Assembly: GCA_013215945.1 (NCBI GenBank)
Contig: JABSOM010000007.1
Location: 1 to 64,000, forward strand
Origin: Campylobacteraceae bacterium
Lineage (GTDB): Bacteria > Campylobacterota > Campylobacteria > Campylobacterales > Arcobacteraceae
Reading direction: 5' to 3'
Length of the DNA: 64,000 nucleotides
The notes below the pieces were generated by a model. The model was given only the letters and a program-made list of their open reading frames with translations. It had not been told where the DNA came from and made no database searches. A program made the position numbers and the translations under genes. Below are positions 40,617 through 48,916 of the stretch, in pieces. Position 1 is the first letter of the stretch; every line of letters starts with the position of its first letter.

Positions 40617-41201
40617 ATGTTAGAAAACTTTATATTAAAAGAAGGCTATAAAAAGATACTCTATACTTTTCTTATATCTGTGTTCTTTGATATTTTCATA
40701 TCGAGTTTTTTGGCAAATTTAGGCTATGTTTTATGCCTCGTTTTACTTTTTATTTTTAGAAACCAAAATAAGTATTTTGGTCCTAAAAAGAATACTTTAG
40801 CTATATGCGATGGTACAATTTCTGCAATTGATATAAAAGGTAAAAAAAGTATTTTACACATTGATGTAAGTATATTTAATAAACACATCTTACGAGCTCC
40901 CCAAGATGGGAAGATTTCACTTATTTCAAAAAAACATGGTTTAAATTTGAATACTGATTCCTATATCTCAAAAAAGTTAAATAATAGCATTACTTTTATG
41001 TTTAATGATTTAAAAATCACCCTAATAGAGGGCTGTTTAAATATGCATACATCTTTAAGCAAAAAAGATGAAGAGTTCTCTCAAAACCAAAAAATTGGTG
41101 TTTTTACTTCGGGTAAGATTATCATTGAAATGAATTCTTTACTTAACAAGAAAATCACTTTGGGACAAAAATTAGTAGCAGGTGAAAGTATTTTAATATA
41201 A
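40617..41201 (+). CDS. Phosphatidylserine decarboxylase-related membrane protein
   Basis: 194 aa resembling the archaetidylserine/phosphatidylserine decarboxylase family in short form. An N-terminal membrane segment (FLISVFFDIFISSFLANLGYVLCLVLLFIF, about residues 14-43) is followed by family-like CDGTISAID, SIFNKHILRAPQDGKIS and a C-terminal LGQKLVAGESILI. The Gly-Ser autocleavage site that creates the pyruvoyl cofactor is not evident: the expected place reads IGVFTSGKIII. It may be inactive or need a different processing site. It lies behind ftsH; in relatives I recall pssA following, but here leuA comes next. Confidence 0.65.
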   Translation: MLENFILKEGYKKILYTFLISVFFDIFISSFLANLGYVLCLVLLFIFRNQNKYFGPKKNTLAICDGTISAIDIKGKKSILHIDVSIFNKHILRAPQDGKISLISKKHGLNLNTDSYISKKLNNSITFMFNDLKITLIEGCLNMHTSLSKKDEEFSQNQKIGVFTSGKIIIEMNSLLNKKITLGQKLVAGESILI

Positions 41202-41214
41202 AGCCTAATAAAGC

Positions 41215-41243
41215 TTGACAAATAAAATAAAATTGCTTATAAT
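41215..41243 (+). promoter_or_regulatory. Consensus sigma-70 promoter upstream of the leuA leader
   Basis: TTGACA (41215-41220), 17 bases, TATAAT (41238-41243): both hexamers match consensus exactly with ideal spacing. Transcription would start near 41250, just upstream of the leader ORF. Confidence 0.9.
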
Positions 41244-41270
41244 TATTCCACACAAATACAGGAGAGTAAA

Positions 41271-41348
41271 ATGAAAATATTCGATTTTTTTAATAATCAA
41301 TTCATAAAAAGTGTAAACACTCTCAATCTCTCAACAATTACCCTCTAA
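41271..41348 (+). CDS. Putative leucine leader peptide upstream of leuA
   Basis: A 25-codon ORF beginning ATG AAA ATA TTC, with CAGGAGAG eight bases upstream and a consensus promoter just before that. Its last eleven residues are VNTLNLSTITL, and all three leucines are CTC, a codon otherwise scarce in this AT-rich genome (TTA dominates). leuA, the committed step of leucine synthesis, starts 88 bases after the stop. That layout is typical of amino-acid leader peptides whose translation senses charged tRNA. A GC-rich attenuator hairpin is not visible afterwards; GAGAG of the leader ribosome site could pair with the CTCTC runs. Regulation by leucine is inferred. Confidence 0.6.
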   Translation: MKIFDFFNNQFIKSVNTLNLSTITL

Positions 41349-41436
41349 AACACAAATAAATATTCAAAAAATAATGACATCGTTTTCTTTTTATTTTAAA
41401 AAGATATAATAATACCATAGTATAAAAGGTTAGAAC
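41349..41436 (+). promoter_or_regulatory. leuA 5' region after the leader ORF
   Basis: This stretch has only a weak A/T hairpin, CTTTTTA-TTT-TAAAAAG, and TATAAT at about 41406, then AAAGGTTAGAAC before the leuA ATG. No classical terminator or antiterminator pair is seen, so control by the leader ORF, if real, may use Rho or translation coupling. Confidence 0.3.
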
Positions 41437-42990
41437 ATGGATAAAAATAGGATTATAGTATTTGATACTACATTAAGAGATGGCGAACAAAGCCCTGGCT
41501 GTTCAATGAATACAGATGAAAAAATTAAAATTGCTTTTCAATTAGAAAAATTGGGAGTTGATGTTATTGAGGCTGGTTTTGCAGCCGCAAGTCCTGGAGA
41601 TTTTGATGCAGTTTCTCAAATTGCTCAAAGTATTAAGAATTCATCTATTTGTTCATTATCAAGAGCAATTGACAATGATATTAAACAATCTGGTTTAGCT
41701 GTTCAAGCTGCAAAACTTAAAAGAATACATACTTTTATCGCAACTTCACCTATTCATATGAAATACAAATTAAAAATGAATGAAGCTGAAGTAATTAAAC
41801 GAGCAGTACATGCAGTGCAGTACGCAAAAACTTTTGTTGATGATGTTGAATTTTCACTAGAAGATGCGGGTAGATCTGATATGAGTTTTATGAAAGAAGT
41901 AATGGATGCAGTGATTGAAGCAGGAGCTAGCACTATTAATCTTCCTGATACTGTTGGTTACAGATTACCAAATGAATTAGGTGCAATGGTTAAAGAATTA
42001 GTAGCTTATGCTAACTCCAGAGCAATTATATCTGTACACAATCACAATGACTTAGGACTTGCTACTGCGAATACTTTGGAATGTGTGTTAAATGGTGCAA
42101 GACAAATTGAAGTGACTCTTAATGGTTTAGGAGAGAGAGCTGGAAATTCTGCTTTAGAAGAAGCAGTTATGGCTATTAAAACAAGACAAGATATTTTTAA
42201 AGGTTTATATACTGGTATTAATACAGTTGAAATCTATCCAAGTTCACGTTTAATTGCAACTATAACAGGTGTTGAACCACAGCAAAATAAAGCAATTGTT
42301 GGGAAAAATGCATTTTCACACGAAAGTGGAATTCATCAAGATGGTATGTTGAAAAACAAAGAAACGTATGAAATTATGAGACCTGAAGATGTAGGTGTAT
42401 TTAAAGAATCAACGTTAATTTTAGGAAAACACTCTGGCCGTGCTGCATTTAGAGATAAAATTAACAACTTAGGTTTTGATACGGTTACTGATGCTGAATT
42501 AAATGCTGCATTTGATCGATTTAAAATATTAGCAGATAAGAAAAAAGAAATTACAGATGATGATATTAGAATGTTAATTACGGATGAATCTTTAAACCAA
42601 GATCAAACCTATGAATTAATAGATTTGCAGATTTCTGACTGTACCAACGGTTTTCCAATGGCAGCGATATCGATTAAACATAATGGAGACATTTTAAAAG
42701 ATGCAAATATTGGATCTGGAACAATGGATGCAATTTTTAAAACCATTGATAGGTTAACAGGTTTTTCTGGAAAACTAGAAGACTATAAAGTAACTTCAGT
42801 AAGTGAAGGGAAAGATGCTTTAGCCAAAGTAATTACGCGAGTATCTTTTGATGAAAAATCACCATCAATTGTAGGACATGGTTTAAGTATTGATACTATG
42901 TTAGCAACTGCAAAAGCATATTTAGGAGCAGTAAACTCTTATGTATCACAAAAAGAAAGACTAAAACCAAAAAACACTCACCAAATTTAA
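41437..42990 (+). CDS. leuA: 2-isopropylmalate synthase
   Basis: 517-aa enzyme of the first step of leucine synthesis (acetyl-CoA + 2-oxoisovalerate). [18 protein letters not shown] (about residues 8-25) is the family signature, with metal ligands also in [14 protein letters not shown] (about 201-214) and [42 protein letters not shown] is present. The C-terminal regulatory domain for leucine feedback spans about residues 385-510. It starts with AAAGGTTAGAAC-ATG. A leader ORF and consensus promoter precede it, and a strong terminator follows, so leuA is a single-gene unit. Confidence 0.96.
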
Positions 42991-43209: not shown

Positions 43210-45192
43210 ATGATGCAATTTAACTTTTTTTTAAAGCTGTTAAAAGAATCATTTAGAGATTTGATTCCAATAGTAATGGTGATTTTATTTTTTCAATTAG
43301 TAATTATTCAAAGTGTACCAGAAAATTGGGTTTCAACTGCCATTGGTTTAGTAATCGTTGGAATTGGCTTAGCAATCTTTTTACAAGGTCTTGAAATAGG
43401 TATATTTCCCGTAGGTGAGGGATTAGCAAGAGATTTTGCAAAATCTGGATGGACAACATGGATACTTATTTTTGGGTTTTTAATTGGTTTTGGTACTACT
43501 ATTGCTGAACCTGCTTTATCTGTAATTGCTGATAAAGCTGCTTCTATTTCTGCTGGAAGAATTGATGCAACTGTACTTAGACTAGTTGTTGCAGCTTCTG
43601 TTGGTTTTGCGATAATGTTGGGAGTGTTTAGGATTATTAGAGGCCATCCCATTCATTATTATATTATCTTTGGTTATGTATTAGTAGTAAGTGTTACTTT
43701 TTTTGCTCCAAAAGAGATTATTGGATTGGCTTATGATTTAGGTGGAGTTACCACCTCGACTGTTACCGTACCTCTTGTTGCAGCTCTAGGAATTGGGCTT
43801 GCATCTTCTATAAAAGGAAGAAATCCAGTGATTGATGGTTTTGGGTTAATTGCATTTGCTTCTTTAACACCAATGATATTTGTTCAAATATATGGAATTG
43901 CAGTATACAATTTAGTTGATGCTAAAGAAGTGATACAAGTAGCAGTGCAAGCAAGTGTTAGCTCACCTACTGATATTACTTTAACTTCCTTAGTTGAAGG
44001 CCTAATTGCAGTTGCTAGAGATGTATTACCCATTTTAGCCATTATTATGTTTTTTCAATATGGAGTAATTAAAAAAAGAATTCCTAATTTAAATACTGTT
44101 TTAATTGGTTTTGCTTTAGTAATATTGGGGCTGTACGCATTTATTTTAGGGCTTGAACTGGGATTATTTTCTCTTGGTGAGACAATGGCTTATCAATTAA
44201 CCCAGGGTTCTTCTGTTTTAATTATTTATGCTTTTGCTTTTGCTATTGGTTTTTCAACCACAATGGCGGAACCTGCATTAATGGCAATTGCTAAAAAAGC
44301 AAAAGAAATATCTGATGGTAAAATTAATGATTTTGCGCTTCGTTTATTTGTTGCTTTAGGGGTTGCTATTGGTATTGCTTTAGGTTCTTTTAGAATTGTT
44401 AATGGTGGAGAAATTCATTATTACATAATAGTGGGATATTTATGTGTAATTATTCTTACTTTTATTGCTCCTAAGTATATTATTCCAATAGCTTATGATT
44501 CAGGAGGAGTAACAACATCAACAATTACTGTTCCTTTAGTAGCAGCCCTTGGTATTGGATTAGCTTCAAACATCGAAGGACGTAGTCCTTTAATTGATGG
44601 TTTTGGATTGATTGCTTTTGCTTCATTATTTCCAATGATTACGGTTATGGTTTACGGTATATTAAGTGAGAAACTGGGTGTTAAATCAGATACTGAAATT
44701 GAAGCTGCAAATATTTTAAGAGATACTTTGGTTGATGCTGAGAATATGGATTTAGCAACAATTAATATTGACGGCAGTGACAGACGGCATTCAATGCCAA
44801 TGGATTTTTCAGTGGTGGTTATAATAGTTCCTAGTGAGAAAAAAGTGGATGCTATTCAAGCAGCAAGTAAAGCAGGAGCTCCTGGAGTTACTGTTTTACG
44901 AGCAGATGGAATGGGACTTGGTCAAATGAATAACTTCTATAGAACGTCTTTTGATGCCAATGATGCTTTATTATTGTTTATTTTACCTCAAGGTATGGTA
45001 AACAGTGTTATTAAATCTATTATTCACTCGCTTCATATTACAACAACAGGAAAAGGGGTGGCTTTTGCATTTCCAGTAAGTCATATGAAGGGTATTTCCT
45101 TATCGCGTCATGAAATCTTTGAAAACAGAAAAGATCATAAAGTAGCAAACGTTGATACAAAAGAGTATGAGGAAGAACATGCATCAAGTTAA
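43210..45192 (+). CDS. Tandem DUF1538 membrane protein with C-terminal PII-like domain
   Basis: 660 aa. Two homologous membrane halves each contain DUF1538-type motifs: GFGTTIAEPALSVIADKAASIS with PLVAALGIGLASSIKGRNPVIDGFGLIAFASL in the first (residues about 90-225), and GFSTTMAEPALMAIAKKAKEIS with PLVAALGIGLASNIEGRSPLIDGFGLIAFASL in the second (about 340-480). The repeated AEPAL and DSGGVTTSTxTVPLVAA suggest inverted or tandem transport repeats. The last 130 residues (FSVVVIIVPSEKKVDAIQAASKAGAPGVTVLRADG ... GVAFAFPVSHMKGIS) look like a PII-type nucleotide-sensing domain. A PII-gated transporter is the inferred role; the substrate is unknown. Confidence 0.8.
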   Translation: MMQFNFFLKLLKESFRDLIPIVMVILFFQLVIIQSVPENWVSTAIGLVIVGIGLAIFLQGLEIGIFPVGEGLARDFAKSGWTTWILIFGFLIGFGTTIAEPALSVIADKAASISAGRIDATVLRLVVAASVGFAIMLGVFRIIRGHPIHYYIIFGYVLVVSVTFFAPKEIIGLAYDLGGVTTSTVTVPLVAALGIGLASSIKGRNPVIDGFGLIAFASLTPMIFVQIYGIAVYNLVDAKEVIQVAVQASVSSPTDITLTSLVEGLIAVARDVLPILAIIMFFQYGVIKKRIPNLNTVLIGFALVILGLYAFILGLELGLFSLGETMAYQLTQGSSVLIIYAFAFAIGFSTTMAEPALMAIAKKAKEISDGKINDFALRLFVALGVAIGIALGSFRIVNGGEIHYYIIVGYLCVIILTFIAPKYIIPIAYDSGGVTTSTITVPLVAALGIGLASNIEGRSPLIDGFGLIAFASLFPMITVMVYGILSEKLGVKSDTEIEAANILRDTLVDAENMDLATINIDGSDRRHSMPMDFSVVVIIVPSEKKVDAIQAASKAGAPGVTVLRADGMGLGQMNNFYRTSFDANDALLLFILPQGMVNSVIKSIIHSLHITTTGKGVAFAFPVSHMKGISLSRHEIFENRKDHKVANVDTKEYEEEHASS

Positions 45193-45533: not shown

Positions 45534-45953
45534 ATGAAGAAAATAGTTTTTGTCTTTTTATTGGTAATAATTGCGATACAGTTTATTCCAAGGTATCAAA
45601 ATAATCCTGGGTATATTTTAAACAAAGAGATATCTGCGCCTTCTAATATAATGATGATGTTAAGAACATCATGTTATGATTGTCATTCTTATGAAACAAA
45701 GTGGCCAACATACAGTAAAATTGCTCCTCTATCATGGTTTATTACACAAAATGTTAATGAAGGTAGAAGGGCTCTTAATTTTTCTCTTTGGAAAGATTAT
45801 ACAAAAGAAGAGAAACAAAAAAAACTAAAAAGAATATATCAAAAAGTATATTCTTCTATGCCTTTGGCTTCTTATTTATTATTTCATGAAGAAGCAAAAT
45901 TAAATAAAAAACAACGTGAGATAATTAGAACGTATACAGGAGTAAGAAGATAA
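45534..45953 (+). CDS. Haem-binding domain protein
   Basis: 139-aa exported or membrane-anchored protein. MKKIVFVFLLVIIAIQFIPR is a signal peptide or anchor. CYDCHSYETKWPTYSKIAPLSWFITQNVNEGRRALNFS is the Haem_bd (PF14376-like) signature with a CxxCH haem c-attachment site at about residues 49-53. Role in electron transfer or as a peroxide/NO sensor is not known. Its stop shares a base with the MutS7 start, so the two are cotranscribed. Confidence 0.88.
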   Translation: MKKIVFVFLLVIIAIQFIPRYQNNPGYILNKEISAPSNIMMMLRTSCYDCHSYETKWPTYSKIAPLSWFITQNVNEGRRALNFSLWKDYTKEEKQKKLKRIYQKVYSSMPLASYLLFHEEAKLNKKQREIIRTYTGVRR

Positions 45954-48916
45954 TGTTAAAAGAAGAAGTTCAAGAATTATTAGATGATAAAAAAACCCTT
46001 TTAACCCTTACTTATTTTAAACTACAAAAATTGCTTGAAGAAAAATATGGAAATAATACGGTTGTTTTAATTGAAATAGGGACTTTTTTCGAAGTATATG
46101 AAATTAATAATGATGAACAAAAAATTGGAAAAGCAAAAGAAATTGCAGAGCTTTTAAATATTCAACTAACACGTAAGAATAAAACTATTTTAGAAAATTC
46201 AGCTGAAAACCCAATAATGGCTGGTGTTCCTGCTATTGCTTTTGATAAACATTTAGCAAGAATAATAGCAGAACAAAAATACACAGTAGTAATTATCAAA
46301 CAAAGAGGAACACCCCCTAATGTTTCAAGATACTTAGATACAGTTGTAAGTCCTGGTACTAACTTTGATTTTGTGATTGATCAAGATGAGAATAATATAA
46401 CTTCTTTATGTATTGATTGTAATAAAGATATTTTTTCTCTTGGTTATGCTGCTATTGATGTAACAACGGGTAAGTGTTATTACAATGAAGTCCATGGAAC
46501 AAGTGAAGATAAATATTATGCTTTGGATGAATGTTTTAATTATATGAACATGCATAAAACGAATGAAATTATTTTAAATTTTACAGACAAAAGTATTAAT
46601 CAAAAAGAAATTATTGATTATTTAGAACTTGGATTAAAAACTTTTCATATTAATGCCTTTAGACCAAAGATTGTATATCAAAATGAATTGTTTAAAAATG
46701 TTTTTAATATAGAATCTTTATTAACGTCAATTGAACACCTTGATATGGAACGAGTCCCTTTAAGTACAGAAGCTTTAGCGTCTTTAATTGATTTTGTTAT
46801 TTCACATGATGATAAAATTATTCAAAAACTCTCTTTACCAATAAAATTAGACGTCTCAAGGTATATATATTTAGGAAACAATGCTTTGGAGCAATTAAAT
46901 ATAATTGAGAGTACTAATAACCCCTCTCTTATAAAATTAATTAACAATACTTCTACTGCTATGGGAAAACGCTTGTTAAAAGAAAGGCTTTCTCATCCTG
47001 TAAAAGATGAAAAAGAATTATTAAGACGTTTTGCTTTGTCTAAAGAATTGTATGATTATCATGGTCCAATTGAAGGTGAGCTTGCTAATATTTATGATAT
47101 TGAACGTTTGACAAGAAGAATTAAATTATGTAGACTTCATCCTTTTGAATTAAATTATTTATATGACTCTTTAGTAAGTATAAAAGAAATTGTTAAATTT
47201 ATGGAAAATTACAAATTTTTTAGCTCCCCTTGTACCTCTGCTGAATTGGCTATTTTTATTGATTCTATTGATTCAACCTTTGATTTAAGTATATCTGGAA
47301 AATATATGTTAAAAGATGTTGAACATAATATGGTTTGTGAAGGTATTAATTCTAATATTGATGCATTAATGAAAGAAAATGCACTTCTAAAAGAAAAACT
47401 TGAGCTTATTAAAACACATATTCTTTCTTTTGTAAAAAACAAAGACAGTTCCTATGTAAGTATTAATCGTTTGGATAAAGAAGGTTTTTATTTAGGTCTT
47501 ACTAAAAGTAGATTTAATTTAATCAAAAACGATTTATTAAATTCTCACTTAATTATTGATGATGAATTACTTTTATTTAAAGACTTTAAAATTAAGATTC
47601 AAACCAATTCAGTAAAAATATCAAATGCTTTTACTGATGATATCTCAGATAAATATGTGCATAATTTAAGAAAAGTTATTGAATTAAATAAACTTGTATT
47701 TAAAGAAAAAGTACTTGAATTTGAGAAAAAATTTGCCACTTTATTAGAAGAGTTGGTTTTATTTATTGCAGAAATTGATTTAACCGTATCAAATATCAAA
47801 ACGTCTAAAAAATACAATTATGTTTGTCCTATTATTGTAAAAACACAGGATAAAGAAAACTTTATTGAAGTGATTGAATTAAGACATCCTATTATTGAAG
47901 CCAATGAAGAGCAGGGTGTTTATGTACCCAATGATATTATTTTAGGAGAACTAGGACTTGCTAGTGAAGAGTATAAAAACAATGTGATTATTAAAAACTC
48001 TAATCCTATTAATATTTTTGATAATAAAATGCATGGTATTTTATTATATGGTATTAATTCTTCTGGAAAATCTTCATTAATGAAATCTTTAGGTATTGCT
48101 ATTGTTTTAGCACAAGCTGGTTTTTTTGTACCGGCTAAATCCATGCGTTTCTCTATTTTTGATTCTATTTTTACACGAATTTCAGGGGCTGATAATATTG
48201 CAAAAGGTTTGTCTTCTTTTGCAGTTGAGATGTTAGAGCTTAAAAATATATTTAACAGAGCAACAAAACGCTCAATAGTTTTAGGAGATGAAATCTCTCA
48301 CAGTACAGAAACAATGAGTGGCGTAAGTATAGTAGCAAGTTCAATTTTAAAACTTGCAAAACTTGAAGCTTTGTTTTTATTTGCTACTCATTTACATCAA
48401 TTACCAGAGATAAAAGAATTAAAAAAACTAAAAAACCTTATTTGTCTGCATTTGTCTGTTTTGTATGAAGACAAAGAAGACAAACTTATTTTTAATAGAA
48501 AACTTCAATATGGAAGTGGCTCTTCAATGTATGGTTTAGAATATGCTAAGTCTTTACATATGGACAGAGAATTTTTAAGTGTTGCTAATGATATACGTAA
48601 ACGCTTATGCGATGATTATTCTTCTATTGAGCGATTAACGAAAAGAAAAACATCGAAATACAATAAAGACTTAATTGTAAGTACTTGTGTGATTTGTGCA
48701 AGACCTGTTGATGATGTACATCATATAAAAGAGCAAGCAAGAGCAAATAAAGAAGGATTTATTGGTCATATGAATGCCAATCATAAATATAATTTAATTC
48801 CTTTATGTAAAGAACATCATTTAATGGTTCATGATGGAAGAATAAATATTAATGGTTTTGTAGCAACATCAAAAGGTTTAGAATTACATTATACAAACGC
48901 GGAAGAGAATAAATAG
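45953..48916 (+). CDS. MutS7-type MutS protein with C-terminal HNH nuclease
   Basis: 987 aa. Domain I has IEIGTFFEVYE at about residues 40-50 (mismatch-recognition Phe45/46-x-Glu type). The connector, lever and clamp follow. The ABC-type ATPase carries Walker A GINSSGKSSLMKS (about 699-711), a Walker B VLGDEI near 776 and STETMSGVS. The C-terminus adds a zinc-bound HNH nuclease: CVICARPVDDVHHIKEQAR ... HKYNLIPLCKEHHLMVHDG (about 912-960). This MutS+HNH layout is the MutS7 class reported in some epsilonproteobacteria, mimiviruses and octocoral mitochondria. The nuclease could replace MutL/MutH incision (inference). It begins at the stop of the haem-binding gene. Confidence 0.88.
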   Translation: MLKEEVQELLDDKKTLLTLTYFKLQKLLEEKYGNNTVVLIEIGTFFEVYEINNDEQKIGKAKEIAELLNIQLTRKNKTILENSAENPIMAGVPAIAFDKHLARIIAEQKYTVVIIKQRGTPPNVSRYLDTVVSPGTNFDFVIDQDENNITSLCIDCNKDIFSLGYAAIDVTTGKCYYNEVHGTSEDKYYALDECFNYMNMHKTNEIILNFTDKSINQKEIIDYLELGLKTFHINAFRPKIVYQNELFKNVFNIESLLTSIEHLDMERVPLSTEALASLIDFVISHDDKIIQKLSLPIKLDVSRYIYLGNNALEQLNIIESTNNPSLIKLINNTSTAMGKRLLKERLSHPVKDEKELLRRFALSKELYDYHGPIEGELANIYDIERLTRRIKLCRLHPFELNYLYDSLVSIKEIVKFMENYKFFSSPCTSAELAIFIDSIDSTFDLSISGKYMLKDVEHNMVCEGINSNIDALMKENALLKEKLELIKTHILSFVKNKDSSYVSINRLDKEGFYLGLTKSRFNLIKNDLLNSHLIIDDELLLFKDFKIKIQTNSVKISNAFTDDISDKYVHNLRKVIELNKLVFKEKVLEFEKKFATLLEELVLFIAEIDLTVSNIKTSKKYNYVCPIIVKTQDKENFIEVIELRHPIIEANEEQGVYVPNDIILGELGLASEEYKNNVIIKNSNPINIFDNKMHGILLYGINSSGKSSLMKSLGIAIVLAQAGFFVPAKSMRFSIFDSIFTRISGADNIAKGLSSFAVEMLELKNIFNRATKRSIVLGDEISHSTETMSGVSIVASSILKLAKLEALFLFATHLHQLPEIKELKKLKNLICLHLSVLYEDKEDKLIFNRKLQYGSGSSMYGLEYAKSLHMDREFLSVANDIRKRLCDDYSSIERLTKRKTSKYNKDLIVSTCVICARPVDDVHHIKEQARANKEGFIGHMNANHKYNLIPLCKEHHLMVHDGRININGFVATSKGLELHYTNAEENK

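Follow-up and report, generated by a model that had tools for sequence, protein, structure and literature searches.

The leader and its surroundings

Directly upstream of leuA, in the 64,000-nt stretch of DNA analysed here (the window), there is a very short open reading frame with leucine codons at its end. Is it a leader that controls leucine synthesis and, if so, how could it act with no evident terminator hairpin behind it? The gene order is a phosphatidylserine decarboxylase-like gene, the promoter P1, the ribosome site AGGAGAGT, the leader (leuL) and leuA, with 88 nt between the stop of the leader and the start of leuA (Table 1). A 25-codon frame with its own ribosome site, placed between a perfect promoter and leuA, was what an earlier note on this DNA had described, and all of these elements are present.

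Table 1. Features of the leuL-leuA region, in positions of the window
Feature	Position	Strand	Remarks
Promoter P1, TTGACA-N17-TATAAT, for the leader transcript	41215..41243	+	12/12 match, 17-nt spacer
Leader ribosome-binding site AGGAGAGT	41260..41267	+	read from sequence; 3 nt before ATG
5' arm of proposed helix, GAGAGT	41262..41267	+	within leader ribosome site; covaries with Leu tract across the order
leuL leader ORF	41271..41348	+	25 codons, MKIFDFFNNQFIKSVNTLNLSTITL*; conserved in Arcobacteraceae
Leu-codon tract, 3' arm of proposed helix	41319..41332	+	ACTCTC 41319-41324, or CTCTC 41328-41332; complementary to 41262-41267
C-rich, nearly G-free stretch, candidate Rho loading region	41319..41393	+	17 C, 2 G in 75 nt
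Last sense codon CTC and TAA	41343..41348	+	final CTC in 70/70 class leaders ending in Leu
A/T palindrome TCTTTTTA-TTT-TAAAAAGA (41386-41404), then TATAAT (41405-41410), candidate P2	41386..41410	+	conserved, arms covary
leuA ribosome site AAAAGG	41424..41429	+	read from sequence
leuA, 2-isopropylmalate synthase, 517 aa	41437..42990	+	NCBIfam NF002086 and TIGR00973 above cut-off; Pfam HMGL-like, LeuA_dimer

P1 is kept upstream of the leader in 19/20 class representatives (TTGACA, the 17-nt spacer and TATAAT, TATACT or TAAACT), and the sequence of the spacer itself is not conserved. Since the 3.24-Mb genome has 27 copies of its exact pattern and only two of the reversed control pattern, P1 is a good promoter, though not a unique one. 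A close relative is 'Arcobacter sp. NORP36', whose LeuA is 100% identical by rounded identity.

The decarboxylase-like gene (40617-41201) directly precedes the leader; this place appears to be taken by a pssA-like gene in Campylobacter and others, and the best pssA-like match of this genome is found on another contig. Beyond leuA, a single ORF (43210-45192) joins two halves of the DUF1538 type, which match UmpA and UmpB, subunits of a Na,Li,K/H antiporter, and has a P-II-like domain at its C-terminal end, and 45953-48916 encodes a MutS-type protein (987 aa) that scores below the MutS equivalog cut-off and has a C terminus that looks HNH nuclease-like (CVICARPVDDVHH...CKEHHLMVH).

The leucine codons of the leader occupy positions 18, 20 and 25, and all three are CTC. 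This had been pointed out before, together with the claim that CTC is rare in this genome, and the count proposed at the time agrees: CTC is far from common, and in 357 long ORFs, taken from 464 kb of the 3.24-Mb genome, it accounts for 290 of the 13,136 leucine codons (2.2%). From this share, the chance of three CTC out of three is about 1e-5. The tRNA-Leu(GAG), which is the natural reader of CTC and CTT, has a single gene, compared with four genes for tRNA-Leu(UAA), among the 38 tRNA genes read out of 47 family hits. Two of the traits by which the LeuL of Campylobacterota can be recognised are present, namely an ORF of 20-35 aa with a ribosome site directly upstream of leuA (25 aa, AGGAGAGT) and several C-terminal leucines in rare codons (3/3 CTC). 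A search of positions 41150-41500 against Rfam gave no match, even at E 10. The hairpin AGUG-UAAA-CACU within the KSVN codons was discarded; it is not conserved, and disappears where residue 17 is Ser instead of Thr.

Conservation of the leader

Given the low GC content of this genome (28.7% in 464 kb), an ORF of 25 codons is by itself weak evidence, and it is the conservation that makes the leader real. Following the comparison suggested in the earlier note, the leuA upstream regions were collected from the family Arcobacteraceae and from the order, and both the short ORF and its leucine codons proved to be conserved. A leader with a leucine-rich end was found upstream of leuA in 12 families among those sampled. 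In most Arcobacteraceae the leader reads MKIFxFxNNxFIKSVN(T/S)LLLLxKSL* (75 distinct sequences), with a conserved N-terminal half, and the leaders of other families end in LPKIEIKN-xLL or in other leucine runs. The leader was not recognised in several genera of Arcobacteraceae (g2, g8, g14, g20), and in some other families the search gave only poor candidates. Changes at the first, second and third codon positions of the Arcobacteraceae class leaders amounted to 5789, 3306 and 10348; the third position dominates, and the leaders are therefore translated ORFs. The internal leucine codons of this type vary among CTT, CTG, CTA, CTC and TTG. Leader-peptide control of leuA, as had been proposed, is well supported by the conserved ORF and leucine codons, and we consider it highly likely that leuA is subject to leader-peptide attenuation.

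The peptides themselves are conserved as well. LPKIEIKN is nearly invariant in the 42 leaders of that type while its codons vary widely, and the N-terminal half of the Arcobacteraceae leaders is conserved too, as would be seen if an LPKIEIKN-xLL or FIKSVN-xLLLL peptide stalled the ribosome from within the exit tunnel in response to leucine or some other signal, much as the nascent peptide TnaC senses tryptophan. The leaders of leuA belong to two unrelated peptide types and to many others, however, and the only features common to them are the leucine codons and the complementarity to the ribosome site, so that we regard control by the nascent peptide as decidedly unlikely. The LPKIEIKN motif, almost unchanged and with codons free to vary, is shared by several families (loci L117-L122, L137-L139 and others), as would be expected if the nascent peptide had a function besides codon sensing.

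Proposed pairing of the leucine codons with the leader ribosome site

The earlier note had also suggested that the leader ribosome site pairs with the leucine codons (GAGAG with CTCTC). The helix is short in the window, 6 bp and -8.8 kcal/mol, an energy reached by 8.6% of the strong-site ORFs of the genome, and the fold of the whole leader is here no better than that of shuffled sequences. Since the helix and the fold of the window are unremarkable when taken alone, the claim rests on the order-wide comparison. The orthologues have helices of 6-12 bp with compensatory changes, for example AGGAGGATAGA/TCTATCCTCCT (11 bp), AGGAGCAG/CTGCTCCT, AGGAGAGAA/TTCTCTCCT and AGGAGGTTG/CAACCTTCT, and in the aligned leaders the bases outside the core of the ribosome site also match the reverse complement around the leucine run.

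Because any purine-rich ribosome site pairs to some degree with CTC codons, we have compared the native pairs of ribosome site and tract with pairs exchanged between species (swap test), using 71 representatives with less than 70% peptide identity. The native pairs had a mean of -11.30 kcal/mol against -10.10 kcal/mol for the swapped ones, and the native value was met by 0/20,000 permutations. Chance complementarity of purine-rich sites with CTC accounts for the base level (the swapped mean of -10.1) and not for the native excess. Five other pairings, those of the leader site with codons 2-13, with the post-leader RNA and with the start region of leuA, and those of the leuA site with the tract and with the post-leader RNA, showed excess in none and avoidance in two by the swap test in the 71 representatives. 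Disjoint contrasts between nearest relatives favoured the native pair in 53 cases and the swapped one in 18 (p=1.9e-5; control 31:47), with 'nearest' being approximate, as distances were taken from 69 nt of leuA without realignment. The script used to call leaders rewards a good ribosome site and a leucine-rich end, a bias that affects native pairs and swapped ones alike. When the swap test is limited to the Arcobacteraceae class, its signal points the right way but falls short of significance (n=11, z=-1.2). In most representatives, the ribosome-site core and the leucine tract are predicted to pair at 0.5 or more, and in the window at 0.65; some lineages (several PKIEIKN-type leaders) have almost no such pairing. 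Judged from this comparison of sequences, the helix between ribosome site and leucine tract is very probably a real feature of the whole order; of the pairing proposed before, the complementarity is upheld by covariation across the order, and what the window itself offers is a helix of modest length.

The same data bear on the ribosome site of leuA. If the leader RNA sequestered it unless a ribosome stalls on the leucine codons, control would be exerted on translation, for which Actinobacteria provide a precedent (the LEU element, see below), and in one predicted fold of the window UUAGA, near the start of leuA, does pair with UCUAA at the stop of the leader. Yet the leuA site does not covary with the leucine tract (z=+0.7) and pairs less with the post-leader RNA than swapped partners do (z=+5.1), which means that the leuA site is kept free. 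Sequestration by the tract or by the post-leader RNA was accordingly rejected, and this type of attenuation appears very improbable here.

Probable termination between leader and leuA

The lack of an evident terminator hairpin, already remarked in the earlier note, stands: in the window, the interval from leader to leuA contains none on the + strand, and none is conserved in the order. Hairpins followed by a U tract are candidates in 10/71 loci against 5 expected from shuffles, mostly in Sulfurovaceae and a few others, with clear candidates at L108, L110, L112 and L178. As candidates were overall about two times as frequent as in shuffles, and none lay on the + strand here in the window, a conserved intrinsic terminator was discarded. 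These numbers also weigh on attenuation of the classical enteric type, in which a stalled ribosome switches between exclusive hairpins, one of them an intrinsic terminator before leuA. The window leader does have the codons for the regulated amino acid that such an attenuator needs, and the clear candidates in some Sulfurovaceae and a few others fit it, but the mutually exclusive antiterminator and terminator hairpins are missing from the window, where no terminator was found and the fold is like that of shuffles. With such hairpins rare in the order, we consider the classical mechanism unlikely. As some Sulfurovaceae have terminator-like hairpins, the termination step may differ between families.

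From the leucine tract onward, the RNA is instead of unusual composition. The C/G skew of 41319..41393 is equalled by only 0.08% of 75-nt windows when both strands of 464 kb are counted, and the order-wide means are 23% C and 7% G. RNA that is rich in C and poor in G is the kind that Rho prefers, and the genome has a rho gene whose product scores above the profile cut-off. Two marks of a tnaC-like, Rho-dependent system, a weakly structured RNA with more C than G behind the leader and a rho gene, are found. From this composition we infer that Rho, masked by a stalled ribosome, is a plausible terminator and the one to be favoured.

A second candidate promoter

Between the leader and leuA there is another conserved element, an A/T palindrome followed by TATAAT (candidate P2, Table 1). 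A P2-like block is found in most members of the Arcobacteraceae class, mostly 25-28 nt before leuA. Variants of the palindrome such as TATTTTTT..AAAAAATA and ATCAATTTT..AAAATTGAT have other letters with the symmetry kept, and when the halves were exchanged between species the average fold was weaker in all 20,000 permutations (0/20000 swaps match native). A covarying palindrome before TATAAT was also seen at L012, L013, L030 and other loci. With up to 3 mismatches allowed, the block has no second copy in this genome, and its being a general type of promoter was ruled out, as the 5/37 genomes with a match have one copy each, beside leuA.

Such strong conservation, with a TATAAT, a nearly fixed distance to leuA and a single occurrence in the genome, could mean that P2 is what mainly drives leuA, the leader being a minor passenger and P1-leuL either weak or acting by transcriptional interference. 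Against this, P1 and the leader are just as widely conserved and P1 is near consensus, and we find this reading improbable; P2 probably supplies a basal level of leuA.

In the Sulfurovaceae, the block conserved in the interval between leader and leuA is another one (AACC..TATTTAGGTAAAATTAGAC). At L108-L115, L185-L193 and L226-L240 a TTTCTAATAACC..TATTTAGGTAAAATTAGACAA block lies between leader and leuA, followed in some of them by a terminator-like hairpin. This block is possibly a second promoter of another design.

A possible mechanism

The sequence features can be arranged in the following way. P1 would strongly make a short RNA, on which a first ribosome would load before the leucine tract is transcribed. 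With ample leucine, the ribosome would reach the stop codon and leave, and the freed tract would pair with the leader ribosome site; the closed site would prevent repeated translation of the leader, and the naked RNA, rich in C and poor in G, would be terminated before leuA, most likely by Rho. When leucine is low, the ribosome would stall on the CTC codons and keep the tract off the ribosome site, so that further ribosomes could queue; the stalled ribosome would also mask the Rho loading region, and the polymerase would continue into leuA.

On balance we favour leuL as a cis-acting sensor of charged leucyl-tRNA, with a self-closing leader, probable termination by Rho and a basal supply from P2. 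For self-closing and Rho exactly as drawn above we would put the chances at even or slightly lower. More tentative still is the extension to an order-wide attenuator of the Campylobacterales. Its control codons would at the same time serve as an anti-ribosome-site, so that one completed round of translation shuts the leader, and the transcript would be ended by Rho and not by a hairpin; pairing with the leader ribosome site would set both the choice of leucine codons and the residues just before the leucine run. If true, leucine synthesis in a whole order would be under the control of a leader whose control codons also govern its own translation, with no terminator hairpin, a simple design for decisions taken by one ribosome. 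It would also explain the rare CTC and CTG codons of these leaders and show why searches based on hairpins miss attenuators in AT-rich genomes.

Comparison with known systems

The earlier note had suggested that a Campylobacterota version without an evident hairpin would be a different mechanism; for the leader itself, the claim of novelty does not hold. Porcelli et al. (2013, PMC3847290) predicted and named LeuL in C. jejuni, a peptide of 28 aa with five rare leucine codons, with orthologues in most Epsilonproteobacteria that have leu genes; its RNA ends shortly behind the stop codon and attenuation was proposed. The start codon of C. jejuni LeuL was confirmed by Ribo-seq in 2025 (PMC11955535), and tBLASTn in that study detected LeuL nowhere beyond C. 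jejuni or its relatives in Campylobacter; traced by position and leucine codons, it is found here across the order. The likeness to our leader is close: both are short ORFs upstream of leuA that have a ribosome site of their own and rare C-terminal leucine codons, and a coupling of leuA transcription to leucyl-tRNA has been proposed (PMC3847290). The pairing of ribosome site and tract, the peptide classes, the invariant final CTC and the second promoter are not described for LeuL in the accessible parts of these two papers. Our search of the openly available literature on LeuL found no mechanism beyond the general proposal of attenuation; subscription papers and supplements lay outside it, and the pairing may be described there. 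The existence of the leader was thus already known, and its anatomy, with a helix between its own ribosome site and leucine tract, appears to be new. C. jejuni LeuL, being visible in Ribo-seq, makes the idea directly testable.

As in the enteric leuL (Salmonella and E. coli leuABCD), a leader peptide with leucine codons would control leuA, but here there is no conserved intrinsic terminator and the leucine codons serve as the 3' arm of a helix whose 5' arm is the leader ribosome site itself. Short leader ORFs followed by C-rich, G-poor RNA, where a stalled ribosome could mask the loading of Rho, are also known from tnaC and other Rho-dependent leader peptides; in our case the signal would be uncharged leucyl-tRNA, and Rho is a candidate suggested by composition. 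Finally, in the actinobacterial LEU element (2005, PMC1262725) a run of leucine codons in a leader upstream of leuA likewise forms pairs with a ribosome site. In that element it is the leuA site that takes part, with a pseudoknot in addition; for the pairing of leucine tract and leuA site we found no covariation (z=+0.7). In our leader the counterpart of the tract is the ribosome site of the leader itself, and that of leuA is left unpaired.
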